In this document: positions 11,070 to 29,701 of the stretch, piece after piece | Position numbering within the stretch: position 1 is the first letter of the stretch | Layout: every line of letters starts with the position of its first letter | From: Nisaea sp. | GTDB taxonomy: Bacteria; Pseudomonadota; Alphaproteobacteria; Thalassobaculales; Thalassobaculaceae | Length of the DNA stretch: 52,658 bases | NCBI RefSeq assembly: GCF_017640745.1 | Contig: NZ_JAEPQA010000029.1 | Coordinates: 1 to 52,658 of the forward strand | Direction: 5' to 3' | Position numbers and translations under genes: made by a program | Notes under the pieces: model-generated | What the model was told of the DNA's origin: nothing | Database searches by the model: none | Seen by the model: only the letters and a program-made list of their open reading frames with translations

Positions 11070-11073
11070 CCGT

Positions 11074-12163: not shown

Positions 12164-12922
12164 CTAACTCTCCAGTGCGGCGAGTATTTCGGCCTTGCGC
12201 GCGACGAATTCGGGACCGGTTCTGACCCGCTGCCGGCGATCGGCAGGGAGGCCAATGTCGAAAGCGGCGCGCAGCCTTCCGGGACGTCCGCTCATCACCA
12301 GAACCCTGTCGGCGAGAAAGACCGCTTCCTCGATGTCGTGCGTCACCAGAAGCGCGGTGATGCCGCGGTCGCCGAGAAGTCCGGCGAGCCAGGCCTGCAT
12401 CTGCGCGCGGGTCTGCTGATCGAGCGCGCCGAACGGCTCATCCAGCAACAGCAGCTCCGGGCCTCCCGCGAGCGTGCGTGCGAGCGCCGCGCGCTGTTGC
12501 ATGCCGCCGGACAGCGCGGTCGGATAGAAGTGTTCGAAACCGTCGAGACCGACCGCGGTTATCAGGTTCGACGTCAGGTCCCGGCTTGCCGCTGGGCCAA
12601 GCGAGCGGAACCGGCTGCCGAACGCGACATTGCCCGTGACGTCGAGCCAGGGGAAAAGGGCGGGCTGCTGAAACACCATGCCGCGGCGCGGACTCGGTCC
12701 GTCGATTCGTTCTCCAGTAAAGCGGATCGCACCTTCATCCGCTTCGAGCAATCCCGCAGCAAGGCGGAGCAAGGTGGACTTGCCGCAGCCGGACGGCCCG
12801 ACGATCGCGACGAACTCTCCCTCCTCGAGGGCGAAGCTGATCGGGCCGACGGCATGAACCGTTTTCGGAGGCGTATCGACCGAGAAACTATGGCGCACAT
12901 TCTCAAGGGAGAGTTTCGGCAA
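12164..12922 (-). CDS. ABC transporter ATP-binding protein, NitT/TauT type
   Basis: A 252-residue ATPase with Walker A GPSGCGKST (about 42-50), the Q-loop at MVFQQPALFPW, the signature SGGMQQR, Walker B LLLLDEPFGALD and the switch His in LLVTHD. The LFPWLDVTGNV segment and size match SsuB/TauB/NrtD-like subunits for sulfonates, taurine, nitrate or thiamine precursors. No permease or binding protein gene is next to it, so it is an orphan here. A place beside sulfite genes would suit a sulfonate importer, but that link is weak. Confidence 0.85.
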   Translation of the reverse strand: MPKLSLENVRHSFSVDTPPKTVHAVGPISFALEEGEFVAIVGPSGCGKSTLLRLAAGLLEADEGAIRFTGERIDGPSPRRGMVFQQPALFPWLDVTGNVAFGSRFRSLGPAASRDLTSNLITAVGLDGFEHFYPTALSGGMQQRAALARTLAGGPELLLLDEPFGALDQQTRAQMQAWLAGLLGDRGITALLVTHDIEEAVFLADRVLVMSGRPGRLRAAFDIGLPADRRQRVRTGPEFVARKAEILAALES

Positions 12923-13105
12923 GGTGCGGATCCGGCTTTCACAATCGGTGGGACAGGATGTATCTGTTTCGAAAATAAGAAACTAATTCATGGATGAAAT
13001 TATCGTCCCTATGCGCGAAATCGCACAGACCGCATTTCAAAAGCGTGCGGTACTTCGTATCATAAGTTGAACATTCGGCATTCCCCGCCGAAGGAGCAAA
13101 AAGCC

Positions 13106-13462
13106 ATGTTTAACTCGATCCTTCGTGCCATCGGCCTGTCTCCCAAGGGTGAGCGGCGGCAGTTCGAGCGCTATCCGGTCACAACCCCGCTCGAAGTGAC
13201 CGTGGATGGCGTTGCCCATACCTGCATCGTAGAGAACGTTTCCGTCGGCGGCCTGCGCCTCGAGCCGCCGGTGGCCGCGAAGCCCGGCAGCGCCCTGAAG
13301 ATCCTGCATCCGGCCTCGGGGCTTCATCTCGAGGGCAAGCTGATCGCCAATGACGAACATGGCGCCCGGGTCAGCTTCAATTCCGCCGAAGCCGGCGCAG
13401 TCGTCTCCGTCTGGGTTCGCATGATGCACGAACAGGAAAGCACGCGTACCGAGACCGTCTGA
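13106..13462 (+). CDS. PilZ domain protein, putative cyclic-di-GMP receptor
   Basis: A 118-residue protein made almost wholly of one PilZ domain. The two ligand motifs are present: RRQFERYP (RxxxR type) near residue 15 and ENVSVGGLRL (D/NxSxxG type) near residue 45. PilZ domains bind cyclic-di-GMP and change the activity of a partner. The ATG at 13106 has AAGGAG 9 bases upstream, better than the frame start at 13067. It is followed 40 bases later by a glycosyltransferase gene on the same strand, so it may tune surface glycan or matrix production. Confidence 0.85.
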   Translation: MFNSILRAIGLSPKGERRQFERYPVTTPLEVTVDGVAHTCIVENVSVGGLRLEPPVAAKPGSALKILHPASGLHLEGKLIANDEHGARVSFNSAEAGAVVSVWVRMMHEQESTRTETV

Positions 13463-15550: not shown

Positions 15551-16588
15551 ATGATCCGTCTTTACCAGACCATGGCAGGGGCGCGCCACGGCGGCGCCGA
15601 AGCATTTTTCGAACGCCTGGTCTCCGCGATGGCAAAGCCGGAATGGAGCGGGGCCCTGACGCAGCGCGTCGCGATCCGGCGTGACGACAGGCGGGCCGGA
15701 ATTCTGCGTGCGGCTGGTGTCGATCTTACTGAATTCGGCTTTGGCGGGGCCTTCGACTTCCTGACGCGCTGGCAGCTCAAGCGGGACATCCGGGCGTTCC
15801 GTCCGGACGTGGTGCTCGCCTGGATGAACCGCGCCGCAGTGAAGACGCCTCCGGGCGATTATCTCCGGGTCGGCCGGATCGGCGGCTATTACGACGTGAA
15901 ATACTATCGCGGCTTCGATCACCTGATTTGCAATGCCCCGGGGCTTGTCGATCACATGACGGCGCAGGGCTGGCCGACGGAACGCACCCACTATGTTCCG
16001 AACTTTGTCCGTGCCGACCCCGGAACACCGCTCAAACGTGCCGCATTCGAAACGCCGGACGGTGCCCCGCTTCTGCTTGCGCTCGGTCGGCTGCATCGGA
16101 ACAAGGCCTATGACGTCCTGCTCCGCGCTCTCGTGAAGACGCCTGAGGCCTATTTATGGCTCGCCGGCGCGGGGCCGGAGGAAGCAGCGCTGAAAGAACT
16201 GTCGGTAGAACTGGGGGTCGCCCCGCGGGTCCGTTTCCTCGGATGGCGCGACGACACGGCGGATCTGCTTGCGAGCGCCGACATTCTGGTCTGCCCGAGC
16301 CGGGTCGAAGGGCTCGGCAACGTCGTGATCGAAGGATGGGCTCACGGTCTGCCCGTCGTTGCTGCGAAGAGCGAAGGGCCGGTGCATCTGATCCGCGATG
16401 GGGAAACCGGGCTTCTGGCCGAGATCGAGGATGCGGACGGATTTGCCGCGCAGCTGAACCGTGTGATCTCCGATGGCGCGCTCGCGACCTCGCTGACCGA
16501 TGCCGGGCGGGCCGAATACGAAGCTCGTTTCAGCGAGCGCACGGTCGTCGGGCACTACCTAGACCTTCTCGGATCTCTCACGAAGTAG
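15551..16588 (+). CDS. Glycosyltransferase family 4
   Basis: A 345-residue GT-B protein. It opens with MIRLYQTMAGARHGGAEAF, the GT4 acceptor-side glycine loop, and has the C-terminal retaining GT4 motif with CPSRVEGLGNVVIEGWAHGLPVV, which includes the two conserved glutamates that hold the nucleotide sugar. It is close to WaaG-like or capsule transferases. The frame is open from 15446 but the family start is at 15551. It is divergent from the second GT9 gene, and together the three transferases form a small surface-glycan set. Confidence 0.85.
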   Translation: MIRLYQTMAGARHGGAEAFFERLVSAMAKPEWSGALTQRVAIRRDDRRAGILRAAGVDLTEFGFGGAFDFLTRWQLKRDIRAFRPDVVLAWMNRAAVKTPPGDYLRVGRIGGYYDVKYYRGFDHLICNAPGLVDHMTAQGWPTERTHYVPNFVRADPGTPLKRAAFETPDGAPLLLALGRLHRNKAYDVLLRALVKTPEAYLWLAGAGPEEAALKELSVELGVAPRVRFLGWRDDTADLLASADILVCPSRVEGLGNVVIEGWAHGLPVVAAKSEGPVHLIRDGETGLLAEIEDADGFAAQLNRVISDGALATSLTDAGRAEYEARFSERTVVGHYLDLLGSLTK

Positions 16589-16609
16589 GACCGGGGCCTA
16601 CCGGCCGTC

Positions 16610-17485
16610 TTACGTAAACTTGCGGAACAGTTTCGTCTGGTCGAAGAGCTGTTCCAGGGCTTTCATACGGTCGCGGGTCTCTTCCCAGCGCTCCGTCTGC
16701 ACCGCCGCGATCAGCGCCTCGATGATGAACAGGATCACCGCGGAACTGTCCCAGGCCGACGGCACTTCGATCCGGGCGCGGAAGCTGTGGCTTGCATGTT
16801 TCGCGGCAGGTGAGCCCCACTGGTCGGTGAAGAGCACCAGCTTCGCCCCGCGCTCCTTCGCCATTTCAGCGAGCCGCTGCGTGTCGTGCTCGTAGCGCCG
16901 GATGTCGAAGGCGACGAGCACGTCCCCTTCCTTCATGTTCAGCACATAGTGCGGCCAGGTGTTCGAGTTCGGCGAGATCAGCGTCACGCCGTCGCGGATC
17001 ACCTGCATGTGGGTGAAGAAATAATCCGCCATCGAGCGGCTGATGCGGCCGCCGACAAGGTAAATGTTTCGTTCCGGGTCGCTCAACAGGTCCACGACCG
17101 CATTGAAATCATCAAGATCGAGCTGCTGCAGGGTCTGCCGGAGATTGTCCGTCACGGCGTCGGCGAAGCGGTTGAGGATATGGGTGTCCGGTGCGTTGGC
17201 GGCCCAGCTGTCATGCTTGGCGATCGGATTGGAGAGGGTGGCCTCAAGCTCTGACCGGAGTGCCGCCTGCATTTCGGGAAAACCGCCGAAGCCGAGCTTG
17301 CGTGCCATCCGCGCGGCCGTCGGTGTCGAGACCTCGGCGGTTTCGGCCAGCGTCGTGATCGTACCGAGGCCGGAGACCGGATAGTTCTCGAGAATAACGT
17401 TGGTGAGCTGACGCTCCGCACGGGTCAGCGACTCGAACCGGCGCCTGATGCGCTCCGCCACCGTTCCGGTCAGGGGCTCCGACAA
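16610..17485 (-). CDS. MurR/RpiR family transcriptional regulator
   Basis: A 291-residue regulator with an N-terminal HTH_6 domain (about 1-80, with TLAETAEVSTPTAARMARKLGF as the recognition helix) and a C-terminal SIS domain (about 125-260, with YLVGGRISRSMADYF). SIS domains sense phosphosugars or other small ligands. It is divergent from the amidohydrolase-TRAP-glutamine synthetase operon, with 143 bases between, so it is the obvious local regulator. RpiR proteins of this group also control non-sugar catabolic operons in Alphaproteobacteria. Confidence 0.85.
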   Translation of the reverse strand: MSEPLTGTVAERIRRRFESLTRAERQLTNVILENYPVSGLGTITTLAETAEVSTPTAARMARKLGFGGFPEMQAALRSELEATLSNPIAKHDSWAANAPDTHILNRFADAVTDNLRQTLQQLDLDDFNAVVDLLSDPERNIYLVGGRISRSMADYFFTHMQVIRDGVTLISPNSNTWPHYVLNMKEGDVLVAFDIRRYEHDTQRLAEMAKERGAKLVLFTDQWGSPAAKHASHSFRARIEVPSAWDSSAVILFIIEALIAAVQTERWEETRDRMKALEQLFDQTKLFRKFT

Positions 17486-17520
17486 TTTATCCTCCCGGGC
17501 GCGACCGCGCCGTGTCGTTT

Positions 17521-17565
17521 TGAAAATAATGCGACAATCTCAGATTTATAGAAGAGGAATTTTCA
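17521..17565. promoter_or_regulatory. Candidate RpiR operator in the divergent promoter region
   Basis: TGAAAAT at 17521-17527 and ATTTTCA at 17559-17565 form a 7-bp perfect inverted repeat with 31 bases between. They lie in an AT-rich patch between the rpiR-like gene and the amidohydrolase gene. RpiR-family regulators often bind TGAAA/TTTCA-type half-sites, so I infer an operator for divergent control. A single long site is not proven; each half could belong to a different site. Confidence 0.4.
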
Positions 17566-17628
17566 GGATTATCCTTGACTGCCTGATCAAAGTTGAAAAG
17601 ATGACGGCAACGTCAGGGGAGAGGGCGA

Positions 17629-18441
17629 GTGGCACTGTCGGCGCAGCCGATCGCGGATCTGTCCGCATGGGGCAATCCGGTCAGCGTGACGAACGCGGGC
17701 GGCAAAGGTGCCGCGATCGTCGTCTGCGAACACGCGTCCAACCATATTCCGGCAGACCTCGGTGGGCTCGGTGTCGACGAAGCCGTGCAGCGAAGCCATG
17801 TGGCCTGGGATCCGGGAGCGCTTGCCGTGGCCTCGACCATGGCCGCCACACTCGACGCGCCGCTGGTCGCGGCGAAGATTTCCCGTCTGGTCTATGACTG
17901 CAATCGTCCGCCCGAAGCCGAAAGCGCCATGCCGGCGGTCAGCGAGATCTATGAAATTCCGGGCAATGCCGGTCTGACGAAGATGCAACGCGCCGAGCGC
18001 GCGGAACGGATCTACTTCCCGTTCCGCGACACGCTGGAGCAGGTCATCGAAGACCGCGTCGCGGCGGGACTGCATCCTGCTATCGTAACCGTTCATTCCT
18101 TCACGCCGATCTATAAGGGGGTCGAACGACCCTTCGATCTCGGCATTCTTCACGATGCGGACAGCCGCCTCGCGGACGCGATGCTGGATCAGCCGGAGGC
18201 CTTCGATGGGCTGGATGTGCGCCGGAACGAGCCGTACGGGCCGGCCGACGGCGTCACGCATACGCTGAAGGTTCATGCGCTACCGCGTGGCCTGCTCAAC
18301 GTCATGATCGAAATCCGCAACGACATCATCCGCGAGACGGCGCAGCAGCGCGTCATGGCGGAGAGGCTGTCGCGCGCGGTCGCGAGAGCGCTGGAGCTCT
18401 GTGCGGCCGCGGACGGCAACCGCGTCGGGCAGCAGAAATAA
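17629..18441 (+). CDS. N-formylglutamate amidohydrolase family protein
   Basis: A 270-residue zinc-hydrolase-like protein of the HutG/FGase family. Motifs VCEHASNHIP near residue 33 and VTVHSFTPIYKG near 150 carry the expected metal and substrate residues. The canonical reaction releases glutamate from N-formylglutamate. No histidine-degradation (hut) genes are near; the gene instead leads a TRAP-glutamine synthetase-ALDH-ADH operon, so the enzyme may remove glutamate from a gamma-glutamylated intermediate. The GTG start at 17629 has GGGGAGAGGG just upstream. TRAP genes follow 10 bases after the stop. Confidence 0.8.
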   Translation: MALSAQPIADLSAWGNPVSVTNAGGKGAAIVVCEHASNHIPADLGGLGVDEAVQRSHVAWDPGALAVASTMAATLDAPLVAAKISRLVYDCNRPPEAESAMPAVSEIYEIPGNAGLTKMQRAERAERIYFPFRDTLEQVIEDRVAAGLHPAIVTVHSFTPIYKGVERPFDLGILHDADSRLADAMLDQPEAFDGLDVRRNEPYGPADGVTHTLKVHALPRGLLNVMIEIRNDIIRETAQQRVMAERLSRAVARALELCAAADGNRVGQQK

Positions 18442-18451
18442 GGGGCGGAGG

Positions 18452-18958
18452 ATGCCAAGAGCGATACGGCTCTATGTCGCTTATGTGGAGAAGATGAACC
18501 GCTTCATCGGCCGGTTTGCGATGTATCTGATCTTCGCGATGCTGGGCGTGCTGCTCTATTCGTCGCTCTCGAAAGCGGTGTTCCTGCCGTCGCTCTGGAC
18601 GCTTGAGACCGCGCAGTTCCTCATGGTCGCCTATTACCTGCTCGGCGGCGGCTATTCCATGCAGCTCGGCGACCATGTGCGCATGGACCTGCTCTATACG
18701 AACTGGAGACCGCGCACCCGCTCTCTGGTCGACTCGATCACCGTTCTCTTCCTGATCTTCTATCTCTGCCTGCTGCTCTACGGCGGCTATTCCTCGACCG
18801 CTTACGCCATCCAGTACAACGAGCAGAGCTATTCGGCCTGGGCGCCCTACATGGCGCCGGTGAAGATCGTAATGACCTTCGGGGTCCTGCTGATGCTGCT
18901 GCAGGCCATCGCGACGCTCTTCAAGGACATCGCGGCCGTGCGCGGGGAGGAACTCTGA
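18452..18958 (+). CDS. TRAP transporter small permease subunit (DctQ family)
   Basis: A 168-residue membrane protein with four predicted helices, the DctQ pattern. It starts MPRAIRLYVAYVEKMNRFIGR at an ATG preceded by GGAGG; the longer frame from 18401 overlaps the amidohydrolase gene and looks false. It works with the large permease DctM and a periplasmic binding protein in sodium-driven uptake. Its TGA overlaps the dctM-like ATG by one base, so the two are translationally coupled. Confidence 0.85.
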   Translation: MPRAIRLYVAYVEKMNRFIGRFAMYLIFAMLGVLLYSSLSKAVFLPSLWTLETAQFLMVAYYLLGGGYSMQLGDHVRMDLLYTNWRPRTRSLVDSITVLFLIFYLCLLLYGGYSSTAYAIQYNEQSYSAWAPYMAPVKIVMTFGVLLMLLQAIATLFKDIAAVRGEEL

Positions 18959-20283
18959 TGAGTTACGAACTGATCGCGATGCTCATGTTCTCGTCGATGA
19001 TGCTGCTGCTCCTGACGGGGCAGCGGGTCTTCGGGGCCATCGGCTTCGTCGCCTCCGCGGCCGCGCTCCTGCTCTGGGGCGACGGCGGCTCGGAAATGGC
19101 CTTCAGCGCGGCCATGAAGCTGATGAAATGGTATCCGCTGCTGACCCTGCCGCTCTTCGTCTACATGGGCTACATGCTGTCGGAGTCGAAGATCGCCGAC
19201 GATCTCTACCGCATGTTCCATGTCTGGATGGGACCGCTGAACGGCGGTCTCGCGATCGGAACGATACTCCTGATGGTCGCGGTCTCGGCGATGAACGGGC
19301 TCTCGGTCGCGGGCATGGCGATCGGCGCCAGCATCGCACTGCCGGAACTGCTCCGGCGCGGTTACGACAAGATCATGGTGACCGGCGTGATCCAGGCGGG
19401 CAGTTCGCTCGGCATCCTCGTCCCGCCAAGCGTGGTGCTCGTGCTCTACGGCATGATCGCGCGCCAGCCGGTCAGCCAGCTCTGGCTCGCCGGCGCGATC
19501 CCCGGCCTGATGATGGCGGGCATGTTCATCGCCTATATCGTCATCCGCTGCTGGATGCAGCCCTCCCTCGGACCCTCGCTCACGAAAGAAGAGAGGGCGG
19601 AGATCACCTGGGAAGAGAAGATCAGCCTGCTCAAGGCCGGTATCCTGCCGCTCTTCATCTTCTTCTCGATGACCGGGCTGTTCCTGATGGGCGTGACCTC
19701 GCTTGTGGAGAGCTCCGCCGTCGGTGCCACTGCCGCCACCTTGGCCGCGCTGGTCAAGCGCCGGCTGACGGCGGAGGTGATGGAAGAGGTGCTGCGCAAG
19801 ACGCTGGGCATCTCCTGCATGTTCATGTGGATCATCCTCGCCGCGCTCTGTTTCGGCGCTGTGTTTGACGGTCTCGGAGCAGTGCGTGCGATCGAGAGCT
19901 TCTTCGTCGACCGGCTCGGTCTCGGCCCGTGGGAGATCCTGATCCTGATGCAGCTCTCCTTCATCCTGATGGGCATGTTCCTCGACGACACGGCGATGCT
20001 GGTCATCGTCGCGCCGCTCTACGTGCCGCTGGTGAAGATGCTGGGCTTCGATCTGGTCTGGTACGGCGTGCTCTACACGATCACCTGCCAGATCGCCTAT
20101 ATGACGCCGCCTTTCGGTTACAACCTCTTCCTGATGCGCGCCATGGCGCCGCCGGAGGTCACGCTGTCGGACATCTACCGGTCCATCGGCCCCTTCGTGC
20201 TGGTCATGACACTGGCGCTCATTCTGGTCATGATCTTCCCCGATATCGCGATGTGGCTGCCCAACCAGTTCTACGGAAGGTAG
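18958..20283 (+). CDS. TRAP transporter large permease subunit (DctM family)
   Basis: A 441-residue protein with about 12 membrane helices. It has typical DctM segments such as SVAGMAIGASIALPELLRRGYDK and VIQAGSSLGILVPPSVVLVLYGMIA, and late helices with LDDTAMLVIVAPLYVPL. It forms the transport channel of a tripartite ATP-independent transporter. It is coupled to the small subunit and separated from the binding-protein gene by 145 bases with a hairpin. The C-terminal LRKTLGISCMFMWIILAALCFG section is somewhat Cys-rich for the family. Confidence 0.88.
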   Translation: MSYELIAMLMFSSMMLLLLTGQRVFGAIGFVASAAALLLWGDGGSEMAFSAAMKLMKWYPLLTLPLFVYMGYMLSESKIADDLYRMFHVWMGPLNGGLAIGTILLMVAVSAMNGLSVAGMAIGASIALPELLRRGYDKIMVTGVIQAGSSLGILVPPSVVLVLYGMIARQPVSQLWLAGAIPGLMMAGMFIAYIVIRCWMQPSLGPSLTKEERAEITWEEKISLLKAGILPLFIFFSMTGLFLMGVTSLVESSAVGATAATLAALVKRRLTAEVMEEVLRKTLGISCMFMWIILAALCFGAVFDGLGAVRAIESFFVDRLGLGPWEILILMQLSFILMGMFLDDTAMLVIVAPLYVPLVKMLGFDLVWYGVLYTITCQIAYMTPPFGYNLFLMRAMAPPEVTLSDIYRSIGPFVLVMTLALILVMIFPDIAMWLPNQFYGR

Positions 20284-20353
20284 TCGTCTGGCGATGGGAC
20301 CGAACAGAAAAAGAAACGGGGAAGGGGAGGCGCATCGCGCCACGACAGTGCGG

Positions 20354-20379
20354 ATGGAACGGCCTGGGAACCGTTCCAT
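20354..20379 (+). promoter_or_regulatory. Hairpin between TRAP permease and binding-protein genes
   Basis: ATGGAACGG (20354-20362) pairs perfectly with CCGTTCCAT (20371-20379) over an 8-base loop. A second short GC palindrome, GGGCCC repeated at 20392 and 20400, follows before the binding-protein ribosome site. No U run follows, so this is more likely an RNA-processing or stability hairpin that lets the binding protein be made in excess over the permease, a known pattern for transport operons. Confidence 0.45.
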
Positions 20380-20428
20380 TGAGGGTTAACCGGGCCCGAG
20401 GGCCCATCACCTAAGGGAGACAGGTGAC

Positions 20429-21484
20429 ATGACGAACAGACGTGAATTTCTGAAGACGGCCGCCGCCGCGACGACGGCGGGCGTTGCCGGAGCCGCGACG
20501 CTCGCCGCGCCGGCCGTGAAGGCGCAGAGCAAGATCAAGTGGCGGCTGCAGACCTATGCCGGTCCGGCCCTTGCCGAGCACGTGATCAAGCCGTCGATCG
20601 ACGCCTTCAACAAGGTCGCCAACGGCGAGATGGAGATCGAGCTCTACTTCGCCGATCAGCTGGTTCCGACCGGCGAGCTGTTCCGCGCCATGCAGCGCGG
20701 CACCATCGACGCGGTGCAGAGCGACGACGATTCCATCGCCGCGCCGGTCGATATCTCGGTCTTCGGCGGCTATTTCCCGTTTGCGACCCGCTACAGCCTC
20801 GACGTGCCCGTGCTGTTCAACCAGTACGGCCTGAAGGAAATCTGGGAAGAGGCCTATGGCGAGGTCGAGGGCGTGACCTGGCTCAGCGCCGGTGCCTGGG
20901 ACCCTTGCCACTTCGCGACCGTCGATCCGATCAATAAGCTCGACGACCTGAAGGGCAAGCGCGTCTTCACCTTCCCGACCGCTGGCAAGTTCCTGTCCCG
21001 CTTCGGCGTCATTCCGGTGACCCTGCCGTGGGAAGACATCGAGGTCGCGGTGCAGACCGGCGAGCTCGACGGCATTGCCTGGTCGGGCATCACCGAGGAT
21101 TACACGGTGGGCTGGGCCGACGTGACCAACTACTTCCTCACCAACAACATCTCCGGCGCCTGGTGCGGGTCCTACTTCGCCAATTCCGAACGCTGGAACG
21201 AACTGCCGGAGCATCTGAAGGAACTCTTCAAGCTCTGCATGGACAGCTCGCACTACTATCGCCAGCACTGGTACTGGGGCGGCGAGGCGAAGCTGCGCGT
21301 CGAGGGCACCAAGATGAAGCTGACCACCATCGCCGACGACGAGTGGGCGAAGGTCGAGGCCGAGGCCGAGAAGTTCTGGGACGAAATCGCTGCCCAGACG
21401 CCGCGGACCAAGAAGGTCATCGACATCTTCAAGAAATATGCGGCGGACATGAAGGCGGCGGGCAAGCCGTACCGCTATAGCTAA
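20429..21484 (+). CDS. TRAP transporter periplasmic substrate-binding protein (DctP family)
   Basis: A 351-residue exported protein. The N-terminus TNRREFLKTAAAATTAGVAG is a twin-arginine-like signal with a cleavage region at APAVKAQS (about 30-34), as in many TRAP binding proteins of the mannitol/chloroaromatic group. The mature part has the DctP fold with QLVPTGELFRAMQRGTIDAVQ and DDLKGKRVFTFPTAGKFL. Substrate is not evident, but nearby enzymes point to an amine, amino alcohol or amino acid derivative. GGGAGACAGG precedes the ATG. Confidence 0.88.
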   Translation: MTNRREFLKTAAAATTAGVAGAATLAAPAVKAQSKIKWRLQTYAGPALAEHVIKPSIDAFNKVANGEMEIELYFADQLVPTGELFRAMQRGTIDAVQSDDDSIAAPVDISVFGGYFPFATRYSLDVPVLFNQYGLKEIWEEAYGEVEGVTWLSAGAWDPCHFATVDPINKLDDLKGKRVFTFPTAGKFLSRFGVIPVTLPWEDIEVAVQTGELDGIAWSGITEDYTVGWADVTNYFLTNNISGAWCGSYFANSERWNELPEHLKELFKLCMDSSHYYRQHWYWGGEAKLRVEGTKMKLTTIADDEWAKVEAEAEKFWDEIAAQTPRTKKVIDIFKKYAADMKAAGKPYRYS

Positions 21485-21516
21485 GACCTGATCGTCTCCT
21501 CCGGGAGCGGCATTTC

Positions 21517-21560
21517 TCCGGCCGCCCGATGCGCGGACCTTGCGCGCACGGGCGGCCGGA
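21517..21560 (+). promoter_or_regulatory. Long GC-rich hairpin after the binding-protein gene
   Basis: TCCGGCCGCCCG (21517-21528) pairs perfectly over 12 bases with CGGGCGGCCGGA (21549-21560); inside, TGCGCG and CGCGCA add six more pairs after a one-base bulge, leaving a 7-base loop. It begins 32 bases after the binding-protein stop. There is no U tail, so it likely protects the 3' end of the binding-protein message or causes partial termination before the glutamine synthetase-like gene. Confidence 0.55.
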
Positions 21561-21644
21561 TACTACTTCGTTGCCGCGCGGCGTCCCGCCGCCGGCAGAA
21601 ACTTCCGGGCCGGGCCCGGATCAATGGAGTGATGGGGTAGCGTC

Positions 21645-23012
21645 ATGGCAGGCAAGCTCAGCTTCGACGAATTGAAGGCGGCCGTCGCAAGCGGCGAGAT
21701 CGATACCGTTCTCGCGGTCCAGATCGACATGCAGGGACGTCTCATGGGCAAACGGTTCCATGCCGAGTTCTTCTGCGAGAGCGCCTACGAGGAGACCCAC
21801 AGCTGCAACTATCTCCAGGCGAACGACATGGAGATGTACACGGTCGAGGGCTACAAGGCGACGAGCTGGGAGAAGGGCTACGGCGACTACACGATGAAGC
21901 CGGATCTTTCGACGATCCGCCGCATCCCGTGGCTCGAAGGCACGGCGCTGGTGTTCTGCGACCTGCTCGACCATCACACCCACGAAGAAGTGGCGCACTC
22001 GCCGCGCGCGATCCTGAAGAAGCAGGTCAAGCGGCTCGAGGCGCTGGGCATGAAGGCCTTCATGGCTTCCGAGCTCGAGTTCTTCGTCTTCAAGCAGAGC
22101 TTCGAGGAAGCCCACGCGATGGGCTACCGCAATATCGAGGTGATCAGCCCCTATAACGAGGACTACCACATCTTCCAGACGACCAAGGAAGAGGGCCTGA
22201 TGCGGGCGATCCGCAACGGGCTGCACGGCGCCGACATTCCGGTGGAGAATTCCAAGGGCGAGGCCGATGCCGGCCAGGAAGAAATCAACGTGCGCTACGC
22301 CGAGGCGCTGACCATGGCCGACCGCCATGTGCTGATCAAGAACGGCTGCAAGGAGATCGCCTGGGCGCAAGGCCGTGCGATCAGTTTCCTCGCGAAATGG
22401 AACTACGACTACGCGGGCAACTCCTCGCACATCCACCAGTCGCTCTGGACGCTGGACGGCAAGCCGCTGTTCTTCGACCCGGACGCGAAGTACGGCATGT
22501 CCGAGATGATGCAGAGCTATCTCGCGGGCCTGCTGGCGCATGCCAAGGAAATCACCTGCTTCCTTGCGCCCTACATCAATTCCTACAAGCGCTTCGTCGC
22601 CGGCACCTTCGCGCCGACCAAGATCGTCTGGTCGATGGACAACCGGACCGCCGGGTTCCGTGTCTGCGGCGACGGCACAAAGGCGGTGCGCGTTGAATGC
22701 CGGATCGGCGGCTCGGATCTCAATCCCTATCTCGCCATGGCGGCCTTGATCGCCGCGGGGCTCGACGGGATCGAGAAGAAGCTGAAGCTGGAAGGCGAGT
22801 TCAAGGGCGATGCCTATGTCGGAAGCGGCGTCCCGGAAATCCCCGCCACGCTCCGCCAGGCGGCCGACGAGCTCGACGGCTCGAAGATGCTGCGCGCCGC
22901 GTTTGGCGACGATGTGATCGACCATTATGTCCATGCGGCCCGCTGGGAGCAGGCCGAATACGACCGTCGGGTGACCGACTGGGAAGTGAATCGCGGGTTT
23001 GAAAGGGCCTGA
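21645..23012 (+). CDS. Glutamine-synthetase family ligase (PuuA/GlnA4-like)
   Basis: A 455-residue protein of the GS beta-grasp/catalytic fold. Metal and nucleotide motifs are visible: ASELEFFVF, AGQEEINVRYAEALTMADRH, NSSHIHQSLW and VECRIGGSDLNPYLAMAA. The protein lacks the adenylylation-loop signature of GlnA and resembles enzymes that ligate glutamate to amines, such as gamma-glutamylputrescine and gamma-glutamylethanolamide synthetases. Its neighbours are an alcohol dehydrogenase, an aldehyde dehydrogenase and an amidohydrolase that acts on glutamyl amides, which supports a role in gamma-glutamylation of an imported amine. The exact amine is unknown. Start ATG is preceded by GGAGTGATGGGG. 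Confidence 0.82.
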   Translation: MAGKLSFDELKAAVASGEIDTVLAVQIDMQGRLMGKRFHAEFFCESAYEETHSCNYLQANDMEMYTVEGYKATSWEKGYGDYTMKPDLSTIRRIPWLEGTALVFCDLLDHHTHEEVAHSPRAILKKQVKRLEALGMKAFMASELEFFVFKQSFEEAHAMGYRNIEVISPYNEDYHIFQTTKEEGLMRAIRNGLHGADIPVENSKGEADAGQEEINVRYAEALTMADRHVLIKNGCKEIAWAQGRAISFLAKWNYDYAGNSSHIHQSLWTLDGKPLFFDPDAKYGMSEMMQSYLAGLLAHAKEITCFLAPYINSYKRFVAGTFAPTKIVWSMDNRTAGFRVCGDGTKAVRVECRIGGSDLNPYLAMAALIAAGLDGIEKKLKLEGEFKGDAYVGSGVPEIPATLRQAADELDGSKMLRAAFGDDVIDHYVHAARWEQAEYDRRVTDWEVNRGFERA

Positions 23013-23019
23013 CACCCAA

Positions 23020-24402
23020 ATGAGCAAGATGCTGCAATGTATTTCGCCGATCGACGGCTCGGTCTTCGCCGAGCGGCCGGTACTCGGTCTCGATCAGGTG
23101 CGGGGGATCCTCGCCGCGGCTCGCGAGGCCCAGCACGCCTGGGCGGCGCGGCCGCTGTCGGAGCGTGTTTCGCTGGTGCGCGCCGGCGTCGCCCGGCTCG
23201 GCGAGATGCAGGCCGAGATGGTGCCGGAACTGGCGCACATGATGGGACGGCCGGTCCGCTATGGCGGCGAGTTCGGAGGCACGAACGAGCGCGCCTCGTA
23301 CATGGCGGATATCGCCGAGAGTGCGCTGGCGCCGATCGTGGTCGAGGACTCGGACAAGTTCGAGCGCCGGATCCTGCGCGAGCCGCACGGCCTCGTCTTC
23401 GTGATCGCGCCCTGGAACTATCCTTACATGACGGCGATCAACACCGTCGCGCCGGCGCTCATCGCCGGTAACGCGGTGGCGCTGAAGCACGCGACACAGA
23501 CCCTGCTGGTCGGCGAGCGCATGGTCCGCGCCTTCGAGGAGGCGGGACTGCCGAAGGGGCTCTTCGTCAATCTCTTCCTCGACCACGGCACGACCGAGGC
23601 GCTGATTTCCTCGAAGAGCTTCGACTTCATCAACTTCACCGGCTCCGTCGGCGGCGGCCGCGCGATCGAGAAGGCGGCGGCGGGCACCTTCACCGGGCTC
23701 GGCCTCGAGCTCGGCGGCAAGGATCCGGGCTATGTGATGGAGGATGCGGACGTCCAGGCGGCGGCGGACACGCTGATCGACGGCGCGATGTTCAATTCTG
23801 GCCAGTGCTGCTGCGGCATCGAGCGCATCTACGTGCATGAGAGCCTCTACGACGCCTTCATCGAGAAGGCGGTGGCGATCGTTTCCGGCTACAAGCTCGG
23901 CAATCCGCTGGAGGATGCGACCACCCTCGGCCCGATGGCGCACAAGCGCTTCGCAGCGGTGGTGCGCGAGCAGACCGCCGACGCCATTGCCAAGGGCGCG
24001 AAACCGCTGATCGATCCAGCTCTTTTCCCAGAGGACGATGGCGGCGCCTACCTGATGCCGCAGATCCTTGTCGACGTCACTCACGACATGACGGTGATGC
24101 GCGAGGAGAGCTTCGGTCCCGTCGTCGGCATCATGAAGGTCTCCGGCGACGAGGAGGCCATCCGTCTGATGAACGACAGCGATTACGGCCTGACCGCCTC
24201 GCTCTGGACGAAGGACGCGGAACGTGCCGCCGCCATCGGTGCGCGGATCGAGACCGGAACCGTCTTCATGAACCGCGCCGACTATCTCGACCCCGGGCTC
24301 TGCTGGACCGGCTGCAAGGATACCGGCCGCGGCGGCGCCCTTTCCGTGATCGGGTTCCAGAACCTGACACGCCCGAAATCCTACCATCTGAAGAAAGCCT
24401 GA
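23020..24402 (+). CDS. NAD(P)-dependent aldehyde dehydrogenase
   Basis: A 460-residue ALDH superfamily enzyme. The cofactor motif FTGSVGGGRAI, the general base Glu230 in GLELGGKDPG and the nucleophile Cys264 in NSGQCCCGIER are all present. Three Cys in a row at the active site is unusual but seen in related enzymes. I prefer the ATG at 23020, seven bases after the glutamine-synthetase stop, over a TTG at 22999. It sits between the ligase and the iron alcohol dehydrogenase; oxidising an aldehyde made by the latter is the simplest reading. Confidence 0.87.
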   Translation: MSKMLQCISPIDGSVFAERPVLGLDQVRGILAAAREAQHAWAARPLSERVSLVRAGVARLGEMQAEMVPELAHMMGRPVRYGGEFGGTNERASYMADIAESALAPIVVEDSDKFERRILREPHGLVFVIAPWNYPYMTAINTVAPALIAGNAVALKHATQTLLVGERMVRAFEEAGLPKGLFVNLFLDHGTTEALISSKSFDFINFTGSVGGGRAIEKAAAGTFTGLGLELGGKDPGYVMEDADVQAAADTLIDGAMFNSGQCCCGIERIYVHESLYDAFIEKAVAIVSGYKLGNPLEDATTLGPMAHKRFAAVVREQTADAIAKGAKPLIDPALFPEDDGGAYLMPQILVDVTHDMTVMREESFGPVVGIMKVSGDEEAIRLMNDSDYGLTASLWTKDAERAAAIGARIETGTVFMNRADYLDPGLCWTGCKDTGRGGALSVIGFQNLTRPKSYHLKKA

Positions 24403-24407
24403 CGGCC

Positions 24408-25553
24408 ATGACCATCAAAGCCAACTGGAGCTACCCGACCGCGATCCGCTTCGGCGCCGGACGCATTGCCGAGATCGGCGAGGCCTGCGCCGCCGCCGGC
24501 ATCAAGCGCCCGCTGCTCGTCACCGACAAGGGTCTCGCCAGCCTGCCGATCACGGCGAAGACGCTGGACCTGCTGGAGGCCGCCGGCCTCGGCCGCGCGA
24601 TCTTTTCGGAGGTTGACCCGAACCCGAACGAGAAGAACCTCGAAGCCGGCATCAAGGCCTTCAAAGCGGGCAACCATGACGGCGTCGTCGCGTTCGGCGG
24701 CGGCTCCGGCCTCGATCTTGCCAAGATGGTCGCCTTCATGGCGGACCAGAAGGGCTCGGTCTGGGATTACGAGGATATCGGCGACTGGTGGACCCGCGCC
24801 GACGCCAGCAAGATCCATCCGAGCGTCGCCGTGCCGACCACGGCCGGCACCGGCTCCGAGGTCGGCCGCGCCAGCGTGCTGACCAATTCCGAGACCCATG
24901 TGAAGAAGATCATCTTCCACCCGAAGGTGCTGCCGAGCGTGGTGATCTGCGATCCCGAACTGACCGTCGGCATGCCGAAGCCGATCACCGCCGGCACCGG
25001 CATGGACGCCTTCGCGCACTGCCTCGAGGCCTTCTGCAGCCCGCATTATCACCCGATGAGCCAGGGCATTGCGCTCGAGGGCATGCGGCTGGTGAAGGAA
25101 TACCTGCCGCGCGCCTATGCCAACGGCGGCGACATCGAGGCCCGCGCCCACATGATGAGCGCGGCTGCCATGGGCGCGACCGCCTTCCAGAAGGGTCTCG
25201 GCGCGATCCATGCGCTCTCCCACCCGCTCGGCGCGGTCTACAACACCCATCACGGCACCACCAACGCGGTGGTCATGCCGCCGGTGCTGCAGTTCAACCG
25301 CCCGGCCATCGAGGACAGGCTCGCGATGGCGGGCGCCTATCTCGGCATCTCCGGCGGGTTCGATGGCTTTTACGATTATGTTCTGGAGCTGCGCGAGCAA
25401 CTCTCGATCCCGGACAAGATGGCGGAACTCGGCGTCGGCACCGACCGGATCGGCGAACTCGCCGCGATGGCGATCGAGGACCCGAGCTGCGGCGGCAATC
25501 CGGTGGAGCTCACGGTCGAGAACCTGACCGAACTGTTCAAGCAGTCGATCTGA
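24408..25553 (+). CDS. Iron-containing alcohol dehydrogenase
   Basis: A 381-residue group III alcohol dehydrogenase. The NAD-binding GGGSGLDLAK (about 97-106) and the metal ligands Asp200, His204, His268 and His282 in the order typical of FucO/YiaY-like enzymes are all conserved. It begins five bases after the ALDH stop, so the two are surely co-transcribed. The pair would turn an alcohol into a carboxylate in two steps. A strong terminator follows the gene. Confidence 0.88.
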   Translation: MTIKANWSYPTAIRFGAGRIAEIGEACAAAGIKRPLLVTDKGLASLPITAKTLDLLEAAGLGRAIFSEVDPNPNEKNLEAGIKAFKAGNHDGVVAFGGGSGLDLAKMVAFMADQKGSVWDYEDIGDWWTRADASKIHPSVAVPTTAGTGSEVGRASVLTNSETHVKKIIFHPKVLPSVVICDPELTVGMPKPITAGTGMDAFAHCLEAFCSPHYHPMSQGIALEGMRLVKEYLPRAYANGGDIEARAHMMSAAAMGATAFQKGLGAIHALSHPLGAVYNTHHGTTNAVVMPPVLQFNRPAIEDRLAMAGAYLGISGGFDGFYDYVLELREQLSIPDKMAELGVGTDRIGELAAMAIEDPSCGGNPVELTVENLTELFKQSI

Positions 25554-25575
25554 CGGCTTCCTCCCGCGTAAGCCT

Positions 25576-25608
25576 GGGGCGGACCTTCGGGGCCGCCCCT
25601 TTCTTTAT
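25576..25608 (+). terminator. Rho-independent terminator with UUCG tetraloop
   Basis: GGGGCGG-A-CC (25576-25585), loop TTCG, then GG-G-CCGCCCC (25590-25599): a ten-position stem with one mismatch, closed by a stable C(UUCG)G tetraloop, followed by the T-rich TTTCTTTAT. It stands 22 bases after the alcohol dehydrogenase stop and ends the rightward catabolic operon. Its tail overlaps the stop codon of the convergent ureohydrolase gene. Confidence 0.8.
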
Positions 25609-26561
25609 CGGCGGTGATGCAAAATCCGCCCGATGAAGTTCAGCAGCAGCTGAGCCGCCAGTGTCGTCGTGCAGCCCGCATGGTCGTAGTCCGGCGCGAC
25701 CTCGACCAGATCCACCCCGACCACCTTGCCCCGCTTTGTCAGCCCGTCGAGCAGTTCCAGCCCCTCGTAATAGGTGAAGCCGCCGTGGCTCGGTGTGCCG
25801 GTGCCGGGGGCGATGGAGGGGTCGAAGCCGTCGATATCGATGGTGACGTAGTAGCGCTTTCCGGCCGGGATGCGCTCCAGCACCGCCTCGACGCCGAGCT
25901 TGCGGAACTGGCGGACGGAAAGGATGTCGGAGCCCATAGAACGCGCGGCTTCGTAGCCTTCCCGCGCGGTCGAGGAGACGTTGCGGATGCCGATCTGGGT
26001 CAGGCCGGTGACATAGTCCTTCTCCGCGGCCCTCCGCATCGGGTTGCCGTGGCCTGAACGGACGCCGTGGCGCTCGTCGACGAAATCGAGATGGGCGTCG
26101 ATCTGCACCAGATGGACCGGCTCCACCTCTGAGAAGGCGTTGATGCAGGGAATGTTCACCGAATGGTCGCCGCCGAGCACGACAGGGATGGCGCCGGCCT
26201 TGAGGATCTTGCGCACGCCGAACTCGATATTGGCGTGGCTCTGCGCCGTGTCGGTATGGACGATGTCGGCGTCGCCGAGATCGACGATCCGCGTCGTCTC
26301 CGCCGGCAGGTAGGTGATGTCGTCCTCGTGGTCGTAGGCACCGCCATGACCGAAGGAGAAGAGGGTGGAGGCCTCCCGGATCCCGCGCGGACCGAAGCGG
26401 GCACCGGCGCGGAACTGGGTGCCGAAATCAAACGGCGCGCCTAGCACCGCGACATCCGCCTCGATCGCGTCCCAGTCCGGCTGGTAGGGGTATTTGCCGA
26501 ATGTGGAGATGCCGACGAAGGGCAGGTTGAGGCGGCCCGTTTCGTAACCGTGCGCTGACAT
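25605..26561 (-). CDS. Ureohydrolase (agmatinase/guanidinobutyrase family)
   Basis: A 318-residue arginase-superfamily enzyme with the binuclear manganese motifs VVLGGDHSV, QIDAHLDFVD and TIDIDGFDPSIAPGTGTPS. Members cleave a guanidino group to urea plus an amine. The sequence is of the agmatinase/guanidinobutyrase/guanidinopropionase type, not true arginase; substrate cannot be fixed by eye. It is 79 bases downstream of the amidase and agmatine-deiminase-like genes, on the same strand, so the three probably act on related guanidino compounds. An imperfect GGGAT ribosome site precedes the ATG. Confidence 0.85.
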   Translation of the reverse strand: MSAHGYETGRLNLPFVGISTFGKYPYQPDWDAIEADVAVLGAPFDFGTQFRAGARFGPRGIREASTLFSFGHGGAYDHEDDITYLPAETTRIVDLGDADIVHTDTAQSHANIEFGVRKILKAGAIPVVLGGDHSVNIPCINAFSEVEPVHLVQIDAHLDFVDERHGVRSGHGNPMRRAAEKDYVTGLTQIGIRNVSSTAREGYEAARSMGSDILSVRQFRKLGVEAVLERIPAGKRYYVTIDIDGFDPSIAPGTGTPSHGGFTYYEGLELLDGLTKRGKVVGVDLVEVAPDYDHAGCTTTLAAQLLLNFIGRILHHRR

Positions 26562-26640
26562 GAAGGGATCCCGGCGGACTGAGAGGAGGGTGCGTCCGCG
26601 TATTGCAGTCCATTCCGGCGGATCTCACAAGCAGGATCGG

Positions 26641-28626
26641 TTAAGGCGACAGCTCGCGATAACCGGCCGTGCCGTTGTCGAAGAGCACAATCAACAAATG
26701 CCCCCAGGGCTCCGACCATTCGCTGTGGCGGTAGTCGTTGCGCCGGGCAATGTGCTCGATGTGGTAGCTGCTCGCCGTCTCGGTGCAGCGGACGGGTTCG
26801 CCGTCGACGGTGACGGCGGCGGGCTTCGGCTCCGCGCCGAAATCGGCCGTGATCCGCACCCGGCCCGTATCTAGCAACTCCGCCGAGGCCAAAAAATCCG
26901 GCGCGACCGCGCCGTCCGATGCCGCTCCCGACGCGACAAAGGGATCATCGAGTTCCGGCGTGCGCGGCGGCGGGACCCTCCTTCTGCCCGTGGCCTCGAA
27001 AGCCGCTGCGAGTTGCAGCAGGAGAGTGTCGTGATAGGCCCGTCCGGCGAAGGTGAGTCCGACTGGCATGCCGGTATCGGCCATCAGCCCCATAGGCACC
27101 GTGACCGTCGGAATGCCGAGATGGCGGATGGCGAGATTCCCATTGGCGACCCAGACGCCGTTGCGCCAGGCCGCATCGGCGGAGGCCGGATTGACGTCCG
27201 CATCCGCCGGGCCGATATCGGCGACAGCGGGAAAGACGAGCGCGTCGAGGCCGAGGCAGTCCATCCAGTCCTCGAGATCGATCCGGCGGGTTTCCTCAAG
27301 ACCCGTAACGCCCTCAGCGACATGCGGAATGGCCCTGAAATCGGAGATGTCGAGGCTGCTTGCATAGTCCGGATAAAGGCTGATCGTGTCGTCGAAGCCG
27401 GTATAGCGGTCCGGCAGGCTGCCCCTCGGCGCGGGGAAAATTTTCTCGCCATCGACATCGGCGAGCCGCCGGCCGTTGGCCGACAGGAACTCTTCCCAGG
27501 ACCAGACCGAGAGATCGATGATCTCACGTTGGAGATAGTCGGCGCCAACAACCCCGCGGGTCTCGATGGTAGGGCAGCCCGGACGGTCGCCCTCGTAGTT
27601 GGAGACAGCGGGAAATTCGACGACCACTACCTCGGCACCGGCGCCTTCCATCGCCTGTCGTGCAGCCTCCCAGAGCGCGATGATCGACGGCCGTGTTTCG
27701 ATGCGCTGTCCGGTTGGGCCGCCGATGCCCGGGTGCTCCGCCGTGCCCGCATGCCGATCGGCATTGATATACATCGCCGGCACGCCGATACGCTTGCCCT
27801 TCAGCGACGCGCCCTCGGCTAGTGCGGCATAGGAAGCGGGGCGGATTCCGGAGGCTTTCGGGATCTGGACCCAGGGCTGCATGCGCCAGAAGTCGCCGTG
27901 TGTCTCAGGATCGTCGGCGACAATCACGTCGAGCAGCTCCAGCATGTCGGCCATGGTGCGGGTATGCGGCACGACCACGTCCATGGTCGGCACAAGCGGC
28001 CAGTTGCCGCGTACAGAGATGACGCCCCGGCTCGGCGTATAGGCGCAAAGAGCGTTGTTGGAGGCGGGCGCCCGGCCGGAGGACCAGGTTTCCTCGCCGA
28101 GCCCGAAAGCGGCGAAGCTTGCCGCCGTCGCGGTGCCGGATCCGTTGGAGGATCCGGAAGCGAAGGCCGCCGTCAGCCAGTCGGCATTATAGGGCGATTC
28201 CGCGCGGCCATGGAGACCGCGCTGCATGCCGCCATTGGCCATCGGCGGCATGTTCGTATGGCCGATGAAGACGGCGCCGGCGGCGCGCAACCGGGCGATG
28301 GCGAAGGCGTCATCGGCGGCGATGAGATCGGCAAAGGCGGGCGATCCGGCGGAAACCCGAAGCCCCTTCACCATGTAGCTGTCCTTGGCCGTATAGGGGA
28401 TACCATCCAGCGGTCCGAGTACTTCGCCGCAAGCACGGCGCTGGTCGGAGGCCAGCGCCTCCTCGAACATTGCCGGGTTGAGCGCCGTCACGGAATTCAG
28501 CCGCAGGCCGTGACGGTCATAGAACGCGATGCGGTTGAGATAGCCTGCGACGAGGGCGACCGAACTGGTCTGTCCGGCGTCGAGCGCGGCGCGCAGCTCG
28601 GCGATGGAGGCGTCTACCAGCCTCAT
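26641..28626 (-). CDS. Amidase-signature hydrolase with C-terminal extension
   Basis: A 661-residue protein. The amidase-signature core covers about 1-545: Lys81 in YTAKDSY, the serine pair in ASGSSNGSG (159-160), and Ser183 in GEETWSSGRAPAS at the nucleophile position. The usual GTDTGGSIRIPA is altered to GEETWSSGRAPA, although the Ser, Arg and Pro are kept. About 115 extra residues at the C-terminus are predicted beta-rich and are absent from ordinary amidases of 450-500 residues. The start ATG at 28626 overlaps the deiminase stop by four bases (ATGA), so the two are coupled. It may cleave a carbamoyl or acyl amide produced from a guanidino compound. Confidence 0.8.
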   Translation of the reverse strand: MRLVDASIAELRAALDAGQTSSVALVAGYLNRIAFYDRHGLRLNSVTALNPAMFEEALASDQRRACGEVLGPLDGIPYTAKDSYMVKGLRVSAGSPAFADLIAADDAFAIARLRAAGAVFIGHTNMPPMANGGMQRGLHGRAESPYNADWLTAAFASGSSNGSGTATAASFAAFGLGEETWSSGRAPASNNALCAYTPSRGVISVRGNWPLVPTMDVVVPHTRTMADMLELLDVIVADDPETHGDFWRMQPWVQIPKASGIRPASYAALAEGASLKGKRIGVPAMYINADRHAGTAEHPGIGGPTGQRIETRPSIIALWEAARQAMEGAGAEVVVVEFPAVSNYEGDRPGCPTIETRGVVGADYLQREIIDLSVWSWEEFLSANGRRLADVDGEKIFPAPRGSLPDRYTGFDDTISLYPDYASSLDISDFRAIPHVAEGVTGLEETRRIDLEDWMDCLGLDALVFPAVADIGPADADVNPASADAAWRNGVWVANGNLAIRHLGIPTVTVPMGLMADTGMPVGLTFAGRAYHDTLLLQLAAAFEATGRRRVPPPRTPELDDPFVASGAASDGAVAPDFLASAELLDTGRVRITADFGAEPKPAAVTVDGEPVRCTETASSYHIEHIARRNDYRHSEWSEPWGHLLIVLFDNGTAGYRELSP

Positions 28627-29657
28627 GACCTGGTCTTCGGCTTCGGCTGTTGCTGGGTGATGCAATGGATGCCGCCGCCGCGCGCGAAGAGTTCGCGGGC
28701 ATCGATCGTCACCACGCGGCGGCCCGGATAGGCGTCGGCGAGGATATCCCGCGCCTGCGCGTCCGCCTCCGCTTCCCCAAAGCCGCAGGCGATCACGCCG
28801 TCATTGACGACGAGATGATTGACGTAGCTCCAGTCGACCGGACCGTGGGCGTCGGTCAAGGTGTCGGGCGCCGGCAGATCGATGATCTCCAGACTGCGGC
28901 CCCGCGCGTCCGTCGCTTCGGAGAGCAGCGCGCGGATCTCCCTCATCACCGCATGGTCGGGATGGCCGGGATTGCGTTGGTTGTGCATCAGCACGGTCCC
29001 GGGCGAGGGGAAGGTCGCGACGATATCGACATGGCCGCGCGTGCCGAAGCGCTCGTAGTCCCGCGTCAGGCCGCGCGGCAGCCAGATCGCCTTCGTGGCG
29101 CCGAGGGTGCGGGCCATTTCCGCCTCGACACGCTCCTTGTCGGCATGTGGATTGCGGTCGGGGTCAAGCTGCACCGTCTCGGTGAGGAGGATTGTCCCTT
29201 CGCCGTCCACATGCAGGCCGCCGCCCTCGTTGACGAGCAGGGAGGAGATCACCGGCACGCCGGCAAGCCCCGCGACGAAGCGGGCGATGCCGCGATCGTT
29301 CCGGGCGGAGGTCCAGTCGCCGCCGCCCCAGCCATTGAAGATCCAGTCGATGGCGGCCAGCGATCCGTCCTCCGCATGAACGAAGGTCGGCCCCGGATCG
29401 CGCATCCAGAAATCGTCGATGACGCGCTCGACGATCTCGATCTCGCCCGTCAGCATCCGGCGGGCCCGCGCGGTTTCGGACGGATTGACGAGGATCGTCA
29501 CGGGCTCGAAAGCGGCGATCTCGTTGGCGACCTCCGCCCAGGCGGCATAGCCGGCCTCCCGCTCGGAAGGGCCGGAGCCGAGCGTTGCGCCCTCGCGCGG
29601 AAACGCCATCCAGATCCGGTCCTGGGGAGCCGTTTCCGGCGGCATGACCCATGTCAT
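28623..29657 (-). CDS. Agmatine deiminase / bacterial peptidylarginine deiminase family protein
   Basis: A 344-residue enzyme of the guanidine-modifying superfamily. Expected residues are seen: DFWMRDPGPTF, NEGGGLHVDGEG, the TRGHVDIV histidine region and the catalytic Cys332 in GGGIHCITQQQP. Agmatine deiminase makes N-carbamoylputrescine and ammonia. I start at MTWVMPPETAP (29657), the normal family start with GAGG upstream, and not at the TTG at 29675. It is the first gene of a leftward trio with the amidase and ureohydrolase. Confidence 0.83.
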   Translation of the reverse strand: MTWVMPPETAPQDRIWMAFPREGATLGSGPSEREAGYAAWAEVANEIAAFEPVTILVNPSETARARRMLTGEIEIVERVIDDFWMRDPGPTFVHAEDGSLAAIDWIFNGWGGGDWTSARNDRGIARFVAGLAGVPVISSLLVNEGGGLHVDGEGTILLTETVQLDPDRNPHADKERVEAEMARTLGATKAIWLPRGLTRDYERFGTRGHVDIVATFPSPGTVLMHNQRNPGHPDHAVMREIRALLSEATDARGRSLEIIDLPAPDTLTDAHGPVDWSYVNHLVVNDGVIACGFGEAEADAQARDILADAYPGRRVVTIDARELFARGGGIHCITQQQPKPKTRS

Positions 29658-29701
29658 TCTCGAAATCCTCGACAAGCAGAGAAAGAGGCGGCGCCCGCTT
29701 C

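Follow-up and report, generated by a model that had tools for sequence, protein, structure and literature searches.

A Nisaea locus that is very probably a further copy of the TRAP-linked ethanolamine catabolic operon

Introduction

Ethanolamine is a head group of phospholipids and is set free when membranes are broken down. Here we describe a locus at positions 16,610 to 25,553 of a stretch of 52,658 nucleotides from Nisaea sp. (contig NZ_JAEPQA010000029.1, our C21, of RefSeq assembly GCF_017640745.1), which is called the window throughout. The source genome amounts to 4.5 Mb and is 97% complete. In the locus, genes for an RpiR-type regulator, a member of the N-formylglutamate amidohydrolase (FGase) family, a tripartite ATP-independent periplasmic (TRAP) transporter, a glutamine synthetase (GS)-like ligase, an aldehyde dehydrogenase (ALDH) and an iron-type alcohol dehydrogenase (Fe-ADH) lie side by side. 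A literature search on Nisaea in combination with ethanolamine returned no report.

Among the closest described systems is an ethanolamine operon in Phaeobacter sp. MED193 (MED193_10021-10056, with the importer EtoVWX), for which the same gene order has been published (Westermann et al., 2023; PMC10132767). According to that article, the substrate-binding protein EtoX of MED193 binds ethanolamine with a Kd of 7.9 μM, and no binding was seen for phosphoethanolamine, phosphocholine or glycerol phosphates. On phosphoethanolamine, the levels of five operon proteins are raised. The steps are named there as ethanolamine gamma-glutamylase, gamma-glutamylethanolamide dehydrogenase, gamma-glutamylacetylaldehydeamide dehydrogenase and gamma-glutamylglycine amidohydrolase, and an earlier demonstration in Chromohalobacter salexigens and Agrobacterium tumefaciens C58 is credited to Vetting (2015). 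The same source puts the share of ocean bacteria that carry etoX at ~5 to 10%; ~94% of the matches fall in Alphaproteobacteria, mostly unassigned.

Two proteins studied elsewhere help to interpret the locus. The structure 4UAB is described as Csal_0678 of C. salexigens with ethanolamine, which is held by Glu220 with aromatic side chains around it (PMC12410723). In 96.8% of DctP proteins an arginine is found that is equivalent to the residue binding the ligand carboxylate, phenylalanine being the commonest replacement, and Csal_0678, which is without the usual arginine, binds ethanolamine (PMC4646407). Similarly, GlnA4 of Streptomyces coelicolor is reported to carry phenylalanine at the E327 position of glutamine synthetases and to glutamylate ethanolamine in vitro (PMC6529630).

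Results

All eight genes that a first-pass annotation of the window had listed as consecutive were confirmed in order, coordinates and family (RpiR, FGase, DctQ, DctM, DctP, GS-like ligase, ALDH, Fe-ADH), and each of the eight gene products scored above the cut-off of its Pfam families (HTH_6 with SIS, FGase, DctQ, DctM, DctP, Gln-synt_C, Aldedh and Fe-ADH, respectively). We conclude that the known TRAP-linked ethanolamine catabolic operon is very probably represented in Nisaea by this locus. Its genes are as follows.

16610..17485, minus strand: RpiR/MurR-family regulator, divergent (Pfam HTH_6 and SIS)
17629..18441, plus strand: FGase-family amidohydrolase, proposed gamma-glutamylglycine amidohydrolase (GGAH) (Pfam FGase, 142 bits; substrate inferred)
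18452..18958, plus strand: DctQ, small TRAP permease (EtoV) (Pfam DctQ; start codon picked by eye)
18958..20283, plus strand: DctM, large TRAP permease (EtoW) (Pfam DctM)
20429..21484, plus strand: DctP, TRAP substrate-binding protein (EtoX), near relative of Csal_0678 (567 bits to PDB 4UAB/4XF5)
21645..23012, plus strand: GS-like ligase, proposed gamma-glutamylethanolamide synthetase (ETAGA) (654 bits to 11ZS, 629 bits to 5DM3)
23020..24402, plus strand: ALDH, proposed gamma-glutamyl-aminoacetaldehyde dehydrogenase (GAADDH) (Pfam Aldedh; alternative start TTG at 22999)
24408..25553, plus strand: Fe-ADH, proposed gamma-glutamylethanolamide dehydrogenase (GETADH) (Pfam Fe-ADH)

The seven plus-strand genes probably constitute one operon. 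They are separated by short gaps or overlap (about 10 bases between FGase and DctQ, 1 base shared by DctQ and DctM, 145 bases between DctM and DctP, 160 between DctP and the ligase, 5 between ALDH and Fe-ADH, with ligase and ALDH either overlapping or 7 bases apart, depending on the ALDH start) and the RpiR gene is divergent, which makes a single operon with a dedicated regulator likely. At the level of narrower families, none of the 25 NCBIfam families listed for the ALDH and none of 16 for the Fe-ADH reached its cut-off.

In the proposed route, EtoVWX would import ethanolamine and the GS-like ligase would join it to glutamate at the expense of ATP, yielding gamma-glutamylethanolamide. Two oxidations would follow, by the Fe-ADH from alcohol to aldehyde and by the ALDH from aldehyde to gamma-glutamylglycine, from which the FGase-family enzyme would cleave off glutamate, leaving glycine. 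Control of the operon probably lies with RpiR, as a sensor of the substrate or of an intermediate. For this strain we infer every catalytic step as well as the regulation, and the FGase step is the least certain. The first-pass annotation had arrived at the same sequence of import, gamma-glutamylation, two oxidations and deglutamylation by the FGase, which agrees with the proposal in the literature. What falls is its view that the pathway might be undescribed, and its statement that the enzyme of each oxidation and deglutamylation step and the TRAP uptake set it apart from the gamma-glutamylethanolamide route, since the same gene order has been published for MED193 together with EtoX binding and induction, and the published route employs the same enzyme families and the same type of TRAP importer (PMC10132767). 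An undescribed pathway is thus rejected, and the window holds an ordinary new copy of a published one.

The closest solved relatives of the ligase are 11ZS and 5DM3, the latter being, as we take it, the GS-like protein encoded by the gene neighboring Csal_0678 in C. salexigens. The ligase scored 266 bits against the equivalog model for type I glutamine synthetase (GlnA), which has a cut-off of 429, and it also stayed well under the cut-off for glutamine synthetase type III. In an alignment of 119 rows, which includes the window and the 5DM3 stretch and contains some genomes twice, the metal, ATP and glutamate residues E129, E131, E212, E220, H269, R321, R339 and E357 are kept in all rows and R359 in 118 of them. 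At the E327 position, phenylalanine is found in 118 rows and tryptophan in one, and at the Y179 position all 119 rows have aspartate; the GlnA of the same genome, used as a control, has Glu and Tyr at these positions. Because the ligase scores below the glutamine synthetase cut-offs, has both E327 and Y179 replaced and shares the phenylalanine with GlnA4, it is unlikely to make only glutamine and, by these residue tests, does not appear to be a normal glutamine synthetase. Ordinary glutamine synthesis was rejected as its function on account of the lost E327.

For DctP, the similarity to 4UAB/4XF5 extends over residues 32-350 and the next best solved relative reaches 57 bits. The two entries have identical sequences, and the ligand in 4XF5 is presumably (S)-2-amino-1-propanol. 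At the position of the carboxylate-binding arginine the window DctP has Phe180, and among 46 EtoX-type rows (window included) this position is occupied by Phe in 39 and by Tyr in 7. The DctP paralogues of the same genome have Arg there, in 4 of 4 aligned in a first alignment, which took in four of six paralogue stretches (L134 and L136 gave no match at the threshold), and in 3 of 3 in later alignments, for which three paralogues were used. A gene represented by both L132 and L142 was dropped on account of a stop within its aligned stretch. The counterpart of Glu220 of Csal_0678 is either Glu223 (chain index 217, offset 3) or Glu212 (chain index 206, offset 14), and both positions are Glu in 46 of 46 EtoX-type rows and in none of the 3 paralogues. 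In the identity alignment, composed of P0005 and 48 of 50 references (L009 and L099 were left out), identity to the window DctP ranges from 62 to 90% for the other 45 EtoX-type rows. A structure prediction from the single sequence was poor (mean pLDDT 38.5) and was set aside. The residue tests speak against a carboxylate ligand and point to a ligand that is small, probably cationic and without a carboxylate.

The conservation of the gene order was studied in 80 named loci, the best 80 of 589 relatives of the ligase. All eight genes occur in the same order and orientation in 19 of them, and another 50 have this order except that one APC-type permease replaces the three TRAP genes. The enzymes and the regulator with neither importer detected were found in 3, and the remaining 8 are incomplete, five of these being truncated by contig ends (L018, L024, L037, L039 and L040). 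The permease was assigned to Pfam AA_permease_2 in L033 (7246-8871) and, in the other 49 loci, recognized by its similarity to the L033 permease; most of the operons with this replacement are rhizobial. Also, a divergent RpiR gene lies beside the FGase gene in 73 of the 80 loci (50+19+3+1). The loci are not independent counts, since most of them come from closely related rhizobia. As the linkage is kept in the 19 loci with the full order and the 50 with the permease, the gene set is not a chance assembly.

This linkage also bears on a reading that follows from the family names alone, namely an ordinary glutamine synthetase, an unrelated dicarboxylate TRAP transporter and an N-formylglutamate deformylase of the histidine type. 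The FGase scored 22 bits against the HutG deformylase equivalog, far below the cut-off of 279, and a hut deformylase was therefore rejected. Together with the exchange of Arg for Phe in DctP, that of E327 for Phe in the ligase and the linkage kept across genomes, this score makes so conventional a combination hardly credible. The sole solved relative of the window FGase is 2ODF (Atu2144) of Agrobacterium, matched at the sequence level with 274 bits by the window enzyme and with 329 bits by one FGase from a rhizobial cluster. This would accord with a shared amidohydrolase if Atu2144 belongs to the ethanolamine cluster of A. tumefaciens C58. The statement of the first-pass annotation that hut and puuB/puuD genes are missing holds for the cluster, as judged by a family scan, and the rest of the genome, which was not searched for hut or puu genes, carries three further genes of the FGase family. 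On contig C5 a DctP relative lies ~2 kb from another FGase-family gene (G000:C5:47876-51726; L132, L142), and on C55 another FGase gene and a GS-like gene are ~10 kb apart (G000:C55:97137-108730; L141).

To cover the phylum more broadly, 398 genomes were sampled for the ligase and for DctP, the shared handles indicating that the set was the same in both searches. The ligase was present at E <= 1e-100 in 43 of 398 genomes and DctP in 27 of 398. The ligase gene adjoins the DctP gene in 17 of these 27, is a few kb off in one (G410), is located elsewhere in three (G056, G345 and G353) and is missing from six. When these six EtoX-only genomes were searched again for a ligase of the window type, the best match was 35% identical. 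Two genomes of the same genus as the window, G002 and G003, have the importer as well.

One genome, G423, offers a different association. Its DctP is 73% identical to that of the window, and the EtoX gene is followed on its own strand, after 67 bases, by eutB and then by eutC, both scoring above their NCBIfam cut-offs. In this locus (L146; G423:C1:908000-927000) the EtoVWX-type TRAP genes, eutB and eutC occupy 6438-11734 on one strand, and an AraC-type gene resembling eutR lies on the other strand at 12130-13146 (188 bits, cut-off 319). An importer adjoining an ethanolamine ammonia-lyase points to ethanolamine independently of the arguments drawn from the window. We found no report of EtoX beside eutBC in a literature survey judged mainly by titles and the openings of abstracts, which is weak evidence of absence.

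In the genome of the window (97% complete) no EutB was detected, with a positive E. coli control, and a eut pathway based on ethanolamine ammonia-lyase was rejected for this organism; since EutB is missing, the operon would be the evident ethanolamine route of the genome, other routes not having been searched for. EutB was also searched for in 14 of the sampled genomes, and among 8 of these with both EtoX and a ligase of the window type it was present in one (G410). The genomes G071 and G130, which have EtoX and no window-type ligase, encode EutB elsewhere, and G424 has neither EutB over the cut-off nor a window-type ligase.

In G395 and G421, the gene after EtoX encodes another GS-like ligase, in which the E327 position is Trp, and ALDH and Fe-ADH come next. 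These Trp-type ligases are 30-34% identical to that of the window and 67% to each other. In the loci concerned (L144, 7375-10032; L145, 6182-9956) the importer precedes the Trp-type ligase, ALDH and Fe-ADH, with no FGase nearby. It is likely that the Trp-type enzyme is a different ligase for the same route. The importer thus has as partners the operon with the Phe-type ligase in the window, the Trp-type ligase with ALDH and Fe-ADH in G395 and G421, and eutBC in G423, and the enzymes in turn are paired with either TRAP genes or the APC-type permease, while the deglutamylase varies too. There is a good chance, in our estimation, that EtoVWX and the gamma-glutamylation enzymes can move as separate modules and that, within Pseudomonadota, ethanolamine import and catabolism have repeatedly been joined in new combinations.

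Several observations weigh against assigning the whole locus to ethanolamine catabolism. In G169, G410 and G425 (one family, outside the class; L137, L151 and L139, respectively) ligase, ALDH and Fe-ADH occur together without an FGase in the stretch examined. A relative of the window FGase was not detected anywhere in the genomes of G410 and G425 at E <= 1e-3, and in G169, G395 and G421 the sole FGase relative is on another contig and 37-39% identical (G169 39%). In G410 and G425, therefore, another enzyme would remove glutamate or the route would end differently. The FGase step is not universal, and the last step is weakened more than the first. Among the 80 loci, L058 showed no RpiR match, and in L023 and L082, where the ligase has ample flanks, neither FGase nor importer is present. 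In the ligase alignment, the D50 column is badly aligned, with Asp in 6 of 119 rows, and decides nothing. Lastly, the residue tests on DctP and the ligase leave ethanolamine and its close analogues, for example 2-amino-1-propanol, undistinguished.

This last point leads to the possibility that the chemistry is as proposed and the natural substrate another small amino alcohol (2-amino-1-propanol, isopropanolamine or serinol). The tests define a small ligand without a carboxylate rather than ethanolamine itself, and 4XF5, with the presumed ligand named above, has the same sequence as 4UAB. However, the importer shares an operon with ethanolamine ammonia-lyase in G423, the window DctP lies close to the other 45 EtoX-type rows, and the MED193 counterpart binds ethanolamine with the micromolar Kd given above (PMC10132767). 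We regard another amino alcohol as improbable and retain ethanolamine as the likely substrate.

Downstream of the operon and convergent to it, genes for an agmatinase, a large amidase (NCBIfam PRK06565) and an agmatine deiminase are found side by side (25605-29675), a trio that could represent a cluster for agmatine or another guanidino compound. Their proximity would be in favor of a polyamine route, with the ligase glutamylating putrescine or amines derived from agmatine. In contrast, they run in the opposite direction, and an agmatinase match adjoins the operon, within the flanks available, in just two other loci of the best 80, both from Nisaea; for these reasons the three genes were kept out of the operon. 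The ligase scored 199 bits where 650 are required for gamma-glutamylputrescine synthetase, no amine oxidase family is represented in the operon and the Fe-ADH suggests a substrate with a hydroxyl group. A link to polyamines is accordingly very improbable, and a putrescine or agmatine route was rejected on the ligase score; ethanolamine remains the preferred substrate.

Two noncoding features accompany the operon.

17486..17628, no strand: divergent intergenic region with the candidate element TTGACT at 17575, followed by TTGAA (pattern comparison)
25576..25606, no strand: possible terminator, a hairpin and T-rich tail separating the operon from the convergent agmatinase gene (fold of 25540-25610; weak)

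RpiR is presumed to be the ethanolamine-responsive regulator of the operon, its ligand and the sign of regulation being likewise presumed. The pattern TTGAC[AT]N9-13[CT]TGAA is present in 40 of 74 RpiR-FGase intergenic regions (window included), and in 0.05% of mononucleotide shuffles. It was found in 33 of 50 regions from loci with the APC-type permease and in 7 of 13 with TRAP genes and a high-scoring RpiR, and in none of 8 with TRAP genes and a low-scoring RpiR or of 3 with neither importer. The window stretch 17550-17600 may hold an RpiR operator or promoter element common to some relatives. This element is a lead only, because the pattern was chosen after the sequences had been viewed, in regions that are related to one another, and no promoter turned up there in a general scan. 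The hairpin behind the operon has a z of only -1.0 and is absent from the listing of a pattern scan. Rfam models at gathering score gave 0 matches over 16000-30000.

Discussion

With the reading preferred here, a puzzle of family names is settled, as glutamine synthetase, N-formylglutamate amidohydrolase and TRAP transporter can be understood as parts of one ethanolamine route. Nisaea becomes one candidate among the carriers of the etoX genes of the ocean, and the importer beside eutBC lends independent genomic support to the ligand of the importer. The apparent swapping of importers, ligases and deglutamylases may merit attention.

Among known routes, the Pseudomonas isopropylamine (Ipu) and the E. 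coli Puu routes presumably share with the window the logic of gamma-glutamyl protection, but employ, as we understand them, other enzymes for oxidation and deglutamylation and another kind of uptake. The GlnA4 pathway proposed for S. coelicolor (SCO1610-SCO1615) follows the same logic of ligase, dehydrogenase, ALDH and FGase-family enzyme, and its ligase likewise has Phe in place of E327; in contrast to the window, no TRAP importer is described, a permease gene occurs in relatives and is absent from the S. coelicolor cluster, and the downstream steps are predicted only (PMC6529630). The C. salexigens proteins Csal_0678 (4UAB) and 5DM3 rank first or second among the solved relatives of their window counterparts (567 and 629 bits) and have the diagnostic residues in common with them, although their host is a gammaproteobacterium. 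The MED193 operon, going by the published gene order, has all eight genes in the order of the window, beginning with the RpiR gene (MED193_10021), in a host of another genus.

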